From contig NZ_FNBH01000004.1 of the NCBI RefSeq assembly GCF_900102265.1, forward strand, positions 124,001 through 188,000: 64,000 bases of DNA, in the 5' to 3' direction. The first letter of the stretch is position 1. Each line of letters opens with the position of its first letter. The translations under genes and the position numbers were made by a program. The notes below the pieces were generated by a model. The model ran no database searches. It worked only from the letters and a program-made list of their open reading frames with translations, and was not told the DNA's origin. Positions 5,421 to 10,879 of the stretch are shown in pieces. The DNA is from Epilithonimonas hungarica (GTDB lineage: Bacteria; Bacteroidota; Bacteroidia; Flavobacteriales; Weeksellaceae).

Positions 5421-5438
5421 TTATGATTCGAATCATAA
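5421..5438. promoter_or_regulatory. Perfect Crp/Fnr-type dyad
   Basis: TTATGATTCGAATCATAA is an 18-bp perfect palindrome with a TGA/TCA core and 4-bp spacer, the architecture bound by Crp/Fnr dimers. Its centre (5429.5) is exactly 33 bp from the centre of the -7 element at 5459-5466, which places it near -40, a class II activator position. Near-identical sites at 7410-7427 and 10834-10851 have the same spacing. Confidence 0.75.
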
Positions 5439-5458
5439 AGATATTGGCTATGGCTTGG

Positions 5459-5466
5459 TAAGTTTG
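5459..5466 (+). promoter_or_regulatory. -7 promoter element of the 203-aa gene
   Basis: TAAGTTTG fits TAnnTTTG and lies 47 bp upstream of the ATG at 5513. No good -33 element is seen, as expected for an activator-dependent promoter. Confidence 0.65.
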
Positions 5467-5512
5467 ATATGCTTAATTATCCCGCAAAATAATTCATATT
5501 AAAATTTTAAAA

Positions 5513-6124
5513 ATGAAAGCGAAACAAATACCTGGTGTTCCGTGGCAGCATAGCGGAGCATATCATGACACCGAAAGCATCAAGAAAATTGTAGCATCCG
5601 ACCTGTTGGCTCAGAAGTTCGAAATATTAAAAGAACGCTTTTTTTCTATCAACCACTGGAAAGATTATTGCGGAAAAGGTTCGGCCGATTTTCGGCTTTT
5701 TGATTCTGGTGGTTCTTACATAGAACGGATACCGCAGAAAGGAGACTTTATGAGGATCGATATTCCTGGTCCGGGAGATATCGAAGCAAAGGGCTACGAT
5801 TGGGTAGAAATTGTATTGGTAGATGATCATTGTTCGGATGATGAGCTGGAAAGATATCTGATATGTTGCAGACCATCTAAAATTCCTGGCAGCAATACCG
5901 ATCACATTGCTCATTTCTATTCACGGGAATCATCTTCTACATTCGTTATTTCCAGAGGGCACGATTTCATTAAAACTGCAGTGTATGGACGAAACGAAAT
6001 ACCTAATTATAAAAAGACAGGATTTTGGGGGAGGATCAGGAATTTTTTGATCTCGACAGGTGGCTACACAAGGATTACCAAAATGCAATGGAAAAGCTAT
6101 ACAGATGGTCTCCTTGATTTTTAA
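5513..6124 (+). CDS. Conserved hypothetical protein, Crp/Fnr-type regulon member
   Basis: 203 aa, no signal peptide or membrane segment visible. The N-terminus has VPWQHSGAYHDTES; the middle (SADFRLFDSGGSYIERIPQKGD, then GYDWVEIVLVDDHCSDDELE) suggests a mixed alpha/beta fold with several acidic turns; the C-terminus is basic and aromatic. I do not recognise the family and do not assign a function. It is preceded by a promoter with the same dyad geometry as the catalase gene, and the catalase-fold gene at 6207 follows 82 nt downstream, so a role in oxidative or stationary-phase stress is plausible by context only. Confidence 0.75.
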   Translation: MKAKQIPGVPWQHSGAYHDTESIKKIVASDLLAQKFEILKERFFSINHWKDYCGKGSADFRLFDSGGSYIERIPQKGDFMRIDIPGPGDIEAKGYDWVEIVLVDDHCSDDELERYLICCRPSKIPGSNTDHIAHFYSRESSSTFVISRGHDFIKTAVYGRNEIPNYKKTGFWGRIRNFLISTGGYTRITKMQWKSYTDGLLDF

Positions 6125-6206
6125 ATCTCTCTTTCTCTCTATTCTGCCAGCTAATGTTTGAAGTTACAATTAATTTGCTGGCTTCATTTTAGCTTTTAAC
6201 AGACCT

Positions 6207-7178
6207 ATGAAAAAGAAACTTAAATACGATCCGGATCTCGACCTTTTGAATAATAATGAAAAGGAACTTTTAAAGAAGGCTTGCGATGCGATAGAAAATT
6301 TCGTCTCCAGATCAGAAAAGATCAATAAGATCGGCTACAAGACAAGAGATGCTCACGTAACTCCATATTCGTCGCTTCGTGGTACTTTTTCAGCATATAA
6401 TAATTTTGAGGAACATGCGATCTTTCCCGCTAAGAATTTGGATTGTATCATCAGGATTTCAAATGCTCATATGAAGCTGGTCTCACAGAAAAAAACTGTA
6501 CCAGCCTATGGGTTTTCTGTTAAGATCTCAGATGCTGAAGATACAGTTCTGAATCTGCCCTTGGTCAATTTTCCTTTATTTCCGGTTGATCTTGTTTCCA
6601 GCTTTTTAAAGATATTCACTTCCATTAATTATTTTTTTTCCGGAAACATTGCGCAGAAATTTTTGGAATTTTCAAGGATCCTGAAAAATTTAATAACCGT
6701 CATTCCTGATTTCTTTCATCCATCATTCATTACTCAGATTTTTAAATTTATAAATAAACGGAATGATTTTATTTTGTCCTTCGATTATCACAGTATTGGT
6801 GCTTACAGGTTAGGAGATCATATGGTCAAATATAAATTGGTTCCAATTGGTATTCCTCGGAAAACGACTGAGAACAGAATAGATCTTTCTATAAAAAATT
6901 ATTTAGAGAACAATGATCATGTATTGGAACTTATGATTCAATATTGTTATGATCTGAAAGACCAGCCGATCAATCAGCTAAATAAAATGTGGAAAAATTC
7001 TGAATTTATTCCTATCGGAAAAATAAAGATCTCAGAATTAATAGATAAAGACGATAAAAATATTGAAAAAATGTCTTTTGATCCTTTTGAAAATATTGCT
7101 GGATTGGAACCGGTCGGTAAAATTCAAAAATTAAGGGATGAAGCGTATAAAACATCTCTTAAAACCAGAAATAAATAA
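6207..7178 (+). CDS. Catalase-fold haem protein (small, y4iL-like)
   Basis: 323 aa. A catalase-type distal-site motif, RDAHVTPYSSLRGTF, places the presumed distal His at H50. A later YHSIGAYRLGDHMVKYKLVP corresponds to the R-x-G-D-x-x-x-K-Y-x-L-x-P segment of small catalase-like proteins, and SFDPFENIAGLEPVGKI resembles the end of the haem domain. The family's usual proximal RxxxY tyrosine is not obvious, so activity as a true catalase is uncertain; peroxidase-like or fatty-acid hydroperoxide activity is possible. It follows the 203-aa gene closely and lies upstream of katE, probably co-transcribed with the former. Confidence 0.7.
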   Translation: MKKKLKYDPDLDLLNNNEKELLKKACDAIENFVSRSEKINKIGYKTRDAHVTPYSSLRGTFSAYNNFEEHAIFPAKNLDCIIRISNAHMKLVSQKKTVPAYGFSVKISDAEDTVLNLPLVNFPLFPVDLVSSFLKIFTSINYFFSGNIAQKFLEFSRILKNLITVIPDFFHPSFITQIFKFINKRNDFILSFDYHSIGAYRLGDHMVKYKLVPIGIPRKTTENRIDLSIKNYLENNDHVLELMIQYCYDLKDQPINQLNKMWKNSEFIPIGKIKISELIDKDDKNIEKMSFDPFENIAGLEPVGKIQKLRDEAYKTSLKTRNK

Positions 7179-7221
7179 AAATATGATCGTATTCTGTCTG
7201 GAAATACTTTTCAGACCTTGA

Positions 7222-7353
7222 TCCCTATTAATTCTCTCAAAGCCGAAAGACTGTCTGAATGAATTTCTCTCTCCAAAGTTTCAATGTTTCGAATATCCCA
7301 AAGTCCGCTATGATGCCAAATATCTGGAAAATCCCAGTCTGGGCGGTCGATAA
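7222..7353 (+). pseudogene. Possible C-terminal gene remnant
   Basis: A 43-codon open stretch ends with a protein-like run (FEYPKVRYDAKYLENPSLGGR) and a stop at 7351-7353, but has no start. It may be the tail of a lost gene. The family is not recognised. The rest of the 338-nt gap is the katE control region. Confidence 0.25.
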
Positions 7354-7409
7354 TGGGATAATATATTTCATATTGCCAAGGTAAATTGTCTTTTTATCAT
7401 TTATGAATG

Positions 7410-7427
7410 TTATGACTCAAATCATAA
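7410..7427. promoter_or_regulatory. Crp/Fnr-type dyad upstream of catalase
   Basis: TTATGACTCAAATCATAA has one mismatch between its 7-bp arms. Its centre (7418.5) is exactly 33 bp upstream of the -7 centre at 7451.5, the same geometry as at 5421 and 10834. Confidence 0.72.
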
Positions 7428-9667: not shown

Positions 9668-9834
9668 AAATCAAGTCACACCATAAACATTATAATTATC
9701 TTATGGGAAAGCGCATACAAACCGTAGATGAAATCCGAAGTATAACTGGTGTGAAGATGGGTGTATAAAAGTTGTTTTGGATCCCTGGATGTAATTGAAA
9801 AATCAACAATTTAAACTTATAAAAATTTTATTTT

Positions 9835-10005
9835 ATGAAAAATATATTATGGTTAGTAGCAGCACTTTGTATCTTCATTTGGCTTCTAGGAATGCTCGGT
9901 GTGATCGAAGGCTTGAGTACGGGATATTTGGTTCACGTGCTTTTGGTAATAGCAGTTATAATTGTGCTTTACAATATTATATCGGGCAGGAAACCGCTTG
10001 ATTAA
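9835..10005 (+). CDS. lmo0937-family small membrane protein
   Basis: 56 aa: a first hydrophobic helix ([19 protein letters not shown]), a short glycine-rich turn (VIEGLSTG), a second helix ([18 protein letters not shown]) and a basic tail ISGRKPLD. This is the pattern of the lmo0937 family of tiny two-helix inner membrane proteins, which are often stress-associated but without known function. It lies 167 nt after katE and ends at a terminator shared with the convergent Crp/Fnr gene. Confidence 0.82.
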
Positions 10006-10042
10006 TTGATGATAGTAACATATAAATTTAAATTTTCAAAAG

Positions 10043-10070
10043 AAAATCCCACTTGTGAAAGTGGGATTTT
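10043..10070. terminator. Bidirectional terminator
   Basis: Bases 10043-10054 pair perfectly with 10059-10070 (12 bp, loop GTGA), with A-run on one side and T-run on the other. It can serve both the small membrane protein gene (plus) and the convergent regulator gene (minus). Confidence 0.85.
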
Positions 10071-10089
10071 TGTTTTTTTAATGATCTTA

Positions 10090-10683
10090 TTAATAATAAA
10101 TATTCCTGTCTATGATCTTAAGCAGCTCCTGCTTCTCGAGATTTTTAATAGTTCGGATAACAGTTTCCACACGTAGTCCGGTTATCGAGGCCAGCTGTTG
10201 TCTGGTCAATGGAACCTGATAAGAATACATACTCCTGTCCGGACTGAAACTTTTATGGTAGTCCAAAACACCTTTGATCCTGACATCTGCCTGCAGAGAA
10301 GCGTTGTTCTCCAACATTACAAATTTGTAATATAGCCGTTCTGAGAGAAACTTATTAACATCTCTTGAAAGTTTGGGATGATCATCCAGCATTTTTATAA
10401 ACTTTGCCTTTGGTAATTTCAGTACAGTACTTTCTTCAAAAACCACGGCATTCACGGGGTATTTTTTATCAATAAAAAGCAAGAGTTCACAAACACTCAG
10501 GCCTGGCTGAAGGATCGCTAATATCAATTCTTTTCCAGCTTCATTATAATGATTGAGCTTTATCCGCCCCTTTACGATCTGATAATAGCATTTTGGGGAA
10601 TCTCCTTCACTGAAAATAATGTCACCACGTTTGAAATTTTCAAATTCTGCACCGTATGATAATAATAGTTCTTCCGCGATCAT
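10090..10683 (-). CDS. Crp/Fnr-family transcriptional regulator
   Basis: 197 aa. N-terminal cyclic-nucleotide-binding-type beta roll (GDIIFSEGDSPKCYYQIVKGRIKL), dimer helix, and a C-terminal winged HTH (PLTRQQLASITGLRVETVIRTIKNLEK). The recognition helix carries R171, E173 and R177 in the E-T-V-x-R arrangement of Crp and Fnr, residues that read the TGA core of their sites. There is no N-terminal cysteine cluster, so it is not an Fnr-like oxygen sensor; the cAMP-contacting residues are also not conserved, so the signal is unknown. It is divergent from the lipoprotein gene at 10904, whose promoter holds a matching TGA/TCA dyad, and is the likely regulator of that dyad family. Confidence 0.88.
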   Translation of the reverse strand: MIAEELLLSYGAEFENFKRGDIIFSEGDSPKCYYQIVKGRIKLNHYNEAGKELILAILQPGLSVCELLLFIDKKYPVNAVVFEESTVLKLPKAKFIKMLDDHPKLSRDVNKFLSERLYYKFVMLENNASLQADVRIKGVLDYHKSFSPDRSMYSYQVPLTRQQLASITGLRVETVIRTIKNLEKQELLKIIDRNIYY

Positions 10684-10833
10684 TTTTAGTTAGTTTATGA
10701 TATTTAGTTTGATTTAATGATTAAGTAGCTGGCAATTAATTCAATGTATAATAAATCTTATGCCAAGTAGCTTCTTGTAGCCGTAAGCATTGTTTTTCCG
10801 ATGTGCGAAATTAATCAGCAATCTATTTTTTTA

Positions 10834-10851
10834 TTATGATACAGGTCATAA
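10834..10851. promoter_or_regulatory. Crp/Fnr-type dyad in the divergent intergenic region
   Basis: TTATGATACAGGTCATAA has one mismatch between arms. Its centre (10842.5) is 33 bp upstream of the -7 centre at 10875.5, identical to the two other sites. It lies between the Crp/Fnr gene and the lipoprotein gene and could also mediate autoregulation. Confidence 0.75.
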
Positions 10852-10871
10852 GTTTTAGACTACGATTGTGA

Positions 10872-10879
10872 TAACTTTG
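10872..10879 (+). promoter_or_regulatory. -7 promoter element of the small lipoprotein gene
   Basis: TAACTTTG fits TAnnTTTG, 25 bp upstream of the ATG at 10904. Confidence 0.65.

Follow-up and report, generated by a model that had tools for sequence, protein, structure and literature searches.

The locus considered here raises the question of whether a group of promoters in Epilithonimonas hungarica that share one DNA site at one distance from one promoter box form a regulon, and which regulator would run it. It lies in a stretch of 64,000 nucleotides (hereafter, the window), which corresponds to positions 124,001 to 188,000 of contig NZ_FNBH01000004.1 (assembly GCF_900102265.1) and within which positions are numbered from 1. 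A first-pass annotation, made from the letters of the window alone, had proposed that a Crp/Fnr regulator encoded there activates three promoters, which precede a gene for a 203-amino-acid protein, katE (which encodes a large catalase), and a gene for a small lipoprotein. Our analysis suggests that these are quite likely class II activator-dependent promoters of one regulon, run by a subfamily of Crp/Fnr proteins with the recognition helix TGLRVET[V/T]IR. The parts of this proposal best supported by the sequences are the spacing and the association between sites and regulators in two genera, and its weakest points are which paralogue acts where, the signal sensed, and the reader of the sites in other genera.

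Promoter geometry in the window and in related genomes

The window contains three mismatch-free dyads of the form TTATGAYNNNNRTCATAA, each of which lies 33 bp, centre to centre, upstream of a TAnnTTTG box, exactly as the first-pass annotation had described. These elements, together with a fourth box that faces the regulator gene, are as follows:

5421..5438, + strand: putative activator dyad TTATGATTCGAATCATAA of the 203-amino-acid protein gene; exact match
5459..5466, + strand: -7 element TAAGTTTG of the same gene; with its last G taken as -5, the dyad is centred at -41.5
7410..7427, + strand: putative activator dyad TTATGACTCAAATCATAA of katE; exact match
7448..7455, + strand: -7 element TATCTTTG of katE; pattern match
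10806..10813, - strand: leftward -7-like element TAATTTCG, one base off, facing the regulator gene at the same 20-bp gap from the shared dyad
10834..10851, no strand assigned: putative activator dyad TTATGATACAGGTCATAA between the lipoprotein gene (right) and the regulator gene (left); exact match
10872..10879, + strand: -7 element TAACTTTG of the lipoprotein gene; pattern match

A chance origin of these sites is ruled out by shuffled sequences and by reversed-pattern controls. The exact dyad occurs three times in the 64 kb, compared to a mean of 0.00 in 100 shuffles, and the composite (i.e., dyad, 20 bp, and TAnnTTTG), with up to three mismatches allowed, occurs five times, compared to a mean of 0.12 and a maximum of 2 in 100 shuffles; TAnnTTTG alone is found 74 times on both strands, or at approximately 0.0006 per position. 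Three of the five composites (those of the 5421, 7410, and 10834 dyads) are free of mismatches, one with a single mismatch represents the 10834-10851 dyad read leftwards, with TAATTTCG toward the regulator gene, and one with three mismatches represents the katE dyad read leftwards.

The same box is used by housekeeping promoters of Bacteroidota; in a study on Flavobacterium psychrophilum, TAnnTTTG is placed at -12 to -5 (PMC9723704). With the final G of the box accordingly assigned to -5, the dyad is centred at -41.5 when the gap is 20 bp and at -42.5 when the gap is 21 bp. CRP and FNR occupy the former position at class II promoters. Unlike in housekeeping promoters, which have a consensus with TTTG at -33, this element is missing in 163 of 165 sites from two genera (with TTTG in 2 of 165 sites, starting 19 to 26 nt upstream of the box), in a set that was partly drawn from matches in which the gap was already fixed; the proposal that these promoters have no good -33 element is supported. 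By sequence, the sites combine what defines a class II promoter, namely a dyad near -41.5, a -7 box, and no good -33 element.

The geometry, which the first-pass annotation had described as fixed, recurs in the rest of the genome and in two genera. A scan of 59 genomes, with the gap left free over 21 values, yielded 122 matches, including 55 with a gap of 20 and 37 with a gap of 21, which places 92 of the 122 on two adjacent gaps; a reversed-pattern control yielded 3 matches in the 59 genomes. The spacing is hence conserved among relatives. Apart from a gap of 15 (14 matches), no other gap accounted for more than 4 matches. All 14 matches at gap 15 represent one conserved element that is also present without the regulator. 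In this element (G000:C5:1386652-1386691 and relatives), a conserved TATGATATTTATCATA is followed at the shorter gap by TAAATTTG or a sequence near it; it occurs in 14 genomes of the genus, including G008 and G021, which have no intact regulator, and is outside this regulon.

In the mechanism that we propose, a dimer of the Crp/Fnr subfamily would bind TTATGAY-N4-RTCATAA, with the centre at -41.5 or, in a second group of promoters, at -42.5. It would stand in for the -33 contact that the housekeeping sigma factor lacks at these promoters and would hold or recruit RNA polymerase at TAnnTTTG, presumably activating transcription from the predicted start site. One alternative is that the promoters fire on their own and that a Crp/Fnr protein, with the dyads as its operators, represses or merely modulates them. 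Crp/Fnr proteins can repress, and a dyad with its centre at -41.5 covers part of the -33 region; however, promoters in which TTTG is so rare at -33 should be weak when unaided, and repression needs no constraint that would confine the spacing to two adjacent values. We regard this alternative as quite improbable, and class II activation remains the reading used below.

A scan for the composite across the whole genome of E. hungarica (3.96 Mb in 12 contigs), which the first-pass annotation had suggested, identified at gap 20 five exact composites, one with one mismatch, and none with two. Two of the exact composites, both on another contig than the window, add to the three already described: one lies 42 nt before a gene for a CheY-like response regulator (PF00072) and the other 145 nt before a gene for a Crp/Fnr paralogue, and the single-mismatch composite is the regulator's own promoter. 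A further paralogue is divergent beside the response regulator gene and convergent to the site-bearing paralogue. At this locus (L005:6784-8520), the response regulator gene is followed by the two convergent paralogues, with an exact composite on either side of the pair, and the convergent pair recurs in relatives. The candidate regulon in this genome hence comprises six promoters, i.e., those of the 203-amino-acid protein gene, katE, the lipoprotein gene, the response regulator gene, one Crp/Fnr paralogue gene, and the window regulator gene, the last with a -7 box that is one base off. As regulators are among their own candidate targets, the regulon is probably self-amplifying. In G000, G015, G014, and G003, the dyad of the neighbouring gene also stands at gap 20 from a -7 box that faces the window regulator gene; this box is one base off in all four genomes, and in G014 and G003 the dyad has one mismatch as well.

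Additional candidate sites in this genome were rejected. At three mismatches, gap 20 yielded 14 matches, compared to 6 in the control (all matches counted), and two of the 14 are known dyads on the other strand; gap 21 yielded 14 matches, all with three mismatches, compared to 15 in the control. Dyads with one mismatch (loci L008-L019) were not part of a composite, and the idea that the paralogue at C9:507326 has a class I promoter was dropped, as no box conserved in relatives was found by eye.

The regulator subfamily and its paralogues

Presence of the sites tracks presence of the subfamily. In the 23 genomes of the genus, 87 composites with at most two mismatches were found at gap 20, compared to 7 for the reversed control. 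Each of the 17 genomes that encode an intact subfamily regulator had such composites, and none of the 6 other genomes did. Here, G021 was counted as regulator-less because it has kept only a broken remnant, and G006 as regulator-bearing because intact copies of a second type stand beside its broken window-type copy. When the count was restricted to exact sites at gaps 20 and 21, with a regulator cut-off of E 1e-24, sites were present in 16 of 18 genomes of the genus with a regulator and in 0 of 5 without; corresponding numbers for Chryseobacterium (99 genomes; genus g39, taken as such) were 85 of 94 and 0 of 5. In total, exact sites were found in 101 of the 122 genomes of these two genera. In the family-wide listings, per-genome counts are complete for composites and for the 132 genomes with a regulator match. 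The broken window-type regulators, which contain internal stops, are located at G006:C39:5065-5654 and G021:C9:51138-51344; G006 retains intact second-type regulators as well as sites, and G021 retains neither.

The window regulator (10090-10683) belongs to the Crp/Fnr superfamily, with matches above cut-off to both defining domains, the cNMP-binding beta-roll (PF00027, E 6.6e-20) and the Crp-type helix-turn-helix (PF13545, E 1.5e-8). A structure predicted from 19 sequences has the CRP fold, with a mean predicted local distance difference test score (pLDDT) of 89.1 and a modelled recognition helix at residues 172-184, and its best Foldseek matches are structures of CRP (E 1.1e-15), NtcA, and Clr. 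The recognition helix contains E173 and R177, as had been proposed from the window; in an alignment of 68 rows, picked by E-value and length from 88 matches and with the window protein counted twice, E173 is found in 68, R177 in 65, and V172 in 61 rows. The protein resembles E. coli CRP in its fold (by sequence and by model), in keeping the equivalents of E181 and R185, and in the predicted activator position at -41.5. It differs from CRP in carrying V172 in place of R180 and Y75, P76 (found in 67 of the 68 rows), K120, and F121 in place of R82, S83, T127, and S128, and its match to the NCBIfam CRP model is 62 bits, compared to a cut-off of 266. The half-site also differs, with TATGAY here and TGTGA for CRP; judged from the contacts of CRP, V172 at the R180 position would fit TATGA instead of TGTGA. 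With E. coli FNR, the system shares a TGAT-N4-ATCA core and the V-E-T..R type of helix; it is unlike FNR in its stress-type targets, in having TA for the TT of the FNR consensus before the core, and in having two cysteines only (C32 and C65), neither of which is invariant in the 68 rows, and its match to the NCBIfam FNR model is 39.6 bits, compared to a cut-off of 228. Neither a cAMP-responsive CRP, of which the pocket residues are absent, nor 4Fe-4S sensing of the FNR type, for which the set of four cluster cysteines is absent, was therefore retained as a candidate, in agreement with the first-pass annotation, and it is unlikely that the ligand is cAMP or an FNR-type cluster. The nitric oxide regulators HcpR, DNR, and NnrR have N-oxide genes as targets; the target classes found here are, by annotation, not N-oxide genes. 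According to PMC8510549, some Flavobacteriales Crp/Fnr homologues near MalR are predicted to sense carbon supply.

Three Crp/Fnr paralogues in the E. hungarica genome carry TGLRVET[V/T]IR. The helix residues differ in five other Crp/Fnr proteins encoded there, and the genome also has four further weak helix-turn-helix matches. In the regulator tree, the window regulator and its 72% identical paralogue fall into a clade of 31 rows (support 100/100), and regulators of the second type form a clade of 32 rows (85/80); proteins from other genera, with helices such as TGLRIETVIR, fall outside both clades. The closest named relative found is Epilithonimonas caeni, with a regulator that is 98% identical.

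These paralogues bear on the claim that the window regulator activates all three window promoters. Its genetic position is suggestive, as it adjoins and diverges from one of the targets, and the -7-like box ties it to the same dyad. However, the two paralogues at C9:507326 and C9:507926 have nearly the same recognition helix, and G017, G020, and G022 have sites even though their best regulators are only 66 to 71% identical to that of the window. With three paralogues so alike in this helix, we consider it unlikely that the window regulator acts alone. The earlier claim is therefore partly supported: its fixed geometry and helix residues stand, and the geometry tracks the subfamily in two genera, but the choice of the window regulator from among its paralogues does not follow.

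Another feature that could involve more than one paralogue is the dyad centre, which, when oriented toward the promoter, reads CA in 65 and TG in 12 of the 165 sites, with related sites counted repeatedly. Such an orientation is odd for a symmetric homodimer and could reflect heterodimers of the two clades, contact with the polymerase, or shared ancestry. A bolder and rather doubtful extension is that Chryseobacterium and Epilithonimonas use an expanded, self-activating Crp/Fnr family as a master switch of the general stress response, in the role of sigma-S or sigma-B, with the clades possibly acting partly as heterodimers; heterodimers would fit both the oriented dyad centres and the frequent occurrence of the two clades as convergent neighbours (e.g., in G000 and relatives).

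Candidate target genes and the reach of the proposed regulon

Targets were read from a part of the site-bearing genomes, in two sets of loci: a first set that was assembled from free-gap composite matches and regulator matches, and a Chryseobacterium set that was assembled from fixed-gap matches and whose gap histogram is hence no evidence for the spacing. The first set includes 117 sites with a downstream reading frame (at most three mismatches in all, some of them weak). Their targets are Crp/Fnr regulators (24), lipoproteins (19), a family of 99 amino acids (8), response regulators (7), a KGG-repeat family (6), the 203-amino-acid family (4), CinA (4), KatE (3), and DUF892 proteins (3), as well as cytochrome-type and similar lipoproteins, which are found in other genera only (9). 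Each of the kinds that make up the remaining 30 occurs once or twice, in part with doubtful frames. Of the 88 Chryseobacterium sites, 14 have no frame, and 55 of the 74 others precede genes of the classes found in the first set, i.e., lipoproteins (19), regulators (14), the KGG type (11), the 99-amino-acid family (6), the 203-amino-acid family (2), CinA (2), and KatE (1); the remaining 19 targets include three DUF5670 proteins, a short-chain dehydrogenase, and a DUF4142 protein. The family of the 73-amino-acid window lipoprotein is the second commonest target class in the first set and the commonest in the Chryseobacterium set. Among the members scanned, Pfam supports DUF892, CinA, DUF5670, DUF4142, short-chain dehydrogenase, and cytochrome c, and Pfam KGG was found in one of two scanned proteins of the KGG-repeat family; profile searches identified no family for the scanned members of the 99-amino-acid targets.

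This gene content in relatives (katE, KGG, DUF892, DUF5670, CinA, and short-chain dehydrogenase) is predicted to be of a general stress response type. We take DUF892 to be the family of YciE and YciF, and KGG to represent YciG. The recurrence of katE, DUF892, and KGG as targets resembles the sigma-S regulon of E. coli, in which, according to PMC2907692, katE and yciF are RpoS-dependent. Unlike in that regulon, an activator on housekeeping-type promoters, and no sigma factor, would be responsible here.

Within the genus, not all copies of these genes carry a site. Of 18 long katE genes, 6 have a site approximately 100 nt upstream (G000, G015, G016, G012, G014, and G003; with one -7 box mismatch in G012 and G014 and three mismatches in all in G003), 4 have one located at a lipoprotein gene, 400 to 500 nt upstream (G005, G007, G009, and G022), and 8 have no site within 700 nt. 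Of these 8, four are second copies (G003, G012, G014, and G016), two are the copies of G006 and G019, and two belong to the regulator-less G011 and G013. Farther out, at approximately 950 nt upstream of katE, G019 does have a lipoprotein site. Among 14 regulator-bearing genomes with a full-length gene for the 203-amino-acid protein, 7 have a site at this gene (G000, G005, G007, G009, G010, G019, and G022). At the same gene in the regulator-less G004 and G011 (L245 and L246), the dyad has one inner base changed and the -7 box is damaged, and these sites look as if they were leftovers after regulator loss.

In other genera, the same dyad and spacing were observed before genes for cytochrome-c-type and other lipoproteins (L142, L146, L148, and L155), and some of the dyads stand single between two divergent genes; these genera appear to use the same DNA code for a different regulon. 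In 36 genomes of other genera within the 59-genome set, sites were present in 11 of 13 with a regulator at E < 1e-17 and in 1 of 23 without, a cut that was chosen after the data had been seen. More distant relatives of the subfamily may read the sites in these genera.

A number of observations weigh against a single stress regulon run by this subfamily. Nine of the 94 regulator-bearing Chryseobacterium genomes have no exact site, and of the six exact dyads in the E. hungarica genome, one (C9:594124) is followed by no box at either gap 20 or gap 21. The leftward -7 box at the regulator is one base off and is absent from G012 and G016, no site accompanies five second katE copies, and the gene for the 203-amino-acid protein lacks a good site in 7 of the 14 genomes (G003, G012, G014, G015, G016, G018, and G020). 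The cytochrome-type targets in other genera imply that the site alone does not mean stress. In addition, the co-occurrence counts are uncorrected for relatedness of the genomes, and the link between site and regulator is weak in the other genera of the family (124 genomes), as sites were present there, at the cut-off of E 1e-24, in 14 of 20 genomes with and 50 of 104 without a regulator (p 0.09).

The last two points, together with the small number of genomes without the subfamily (only 5 in each of the two genera), speak for an alternative in which the reader of the dyads is some other factor or a Crp/Fnr protein that is more widespread, with the subfamily link reflecting shared ancestry. However, the site-less G002, G004, G008, G011, and G013 keep Crp/Fnr relatives (best E 1.8e-13 to 2.9e-10), the widespread protein of 248 amino acids has another helix (IGTATESAIR), and the split between genomes with and without a regulator is seen in both genera. 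This explanation therefore appears quite improbable, and the TGLRVET[V/T]IR subfamily remains our preferred reader of the sites in Epilithonimonas and Chryseobacterium.

Genes of the locus and meaning for the Bacteroidota

The genes of the locus are as follows:

5513..6124, + strand: 203-amino-acid protein, beginning 46 nt past the -7 box
6207..7178, + strand: 323-amino-acid protein behind the 203-amino-acid protein gene; an earlier claim of a catalase fold is not confirmed
7517..9667, + strand: large catalase, predicted to be of the HPII/KatE type; Catalase, Catalase-rel, and Catalase_C over the Pfam cut-off
9835..10005, + strand: 56-amino-acid DUF5670 protein, 168 nt behind katE and without a dyad of its own
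10090..10683, - strand: Crp/Fnr regulator of 197 amino acids with helix TGLRVETVIR, divergent from the lipoprotein gene
10904..11125, + strand: 73-amino-acid lipoprotein, judged as such by eye from its N-terminus

No Pfam or NCBIfam family match was found for the 203-amino-acid protein, and no Pfam family match for the lipoprotein. The window KatE scored 1049.4 bits against NCBIfam PRK11249, for which the cut-off is 1102. The DUF5670 relatives in Chryseobacterium do have dyads. For the 323-amino-acid protein, no catalase match was obtained in Pfam, NCBIfam, or PDB sequences, or in a comparison with the window KatE that left out locus L007, and its single-sequence model is unusable because of a pLDDT of 33.3. 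A 377-amino-acid relative of this protein (27% identity) is encoded at L177:2725-5277 next to a 452-amino-acid protein, which looks like a Dyp-type peroxidase. Elsewhere in the window (1812-3476), a flavohaemoprotein gene (over the NCBIfam cut-off) is followed by a gene for an Rrf2-type regulator, whose best NCBIfam match, NsrR, is below cut-off; this is perhaps a nitric oxide module.

Literature on general stress control in Bacteroidota, judged by titles and abstract openings, showed no such regulator, and no paper on this regulon was found on the same basis, in a search that covered few subscription papers and not the exact slash spelling of Crp/Fnr. Beyond what the first-pass annotation contained, our analysis adds three further promoters in the same genome, regulators as targets, and a stress-like gene content in relatives. 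For one family of bacteria, it offers a testable answer to how general stress may be controlled, in which a subfamily of regulators is combined with a DNA site, a promoter position that is fixed, and a list of targets. It also provides a natural collection of probable class II promoters used by a polymerase with promoter boxes unlike those of E. coli, in which gain, loss, and decay of sites are visible within one genus. The fixed Crp/Fnr promoter layout may represent a mode of general stress control that has not been described before.

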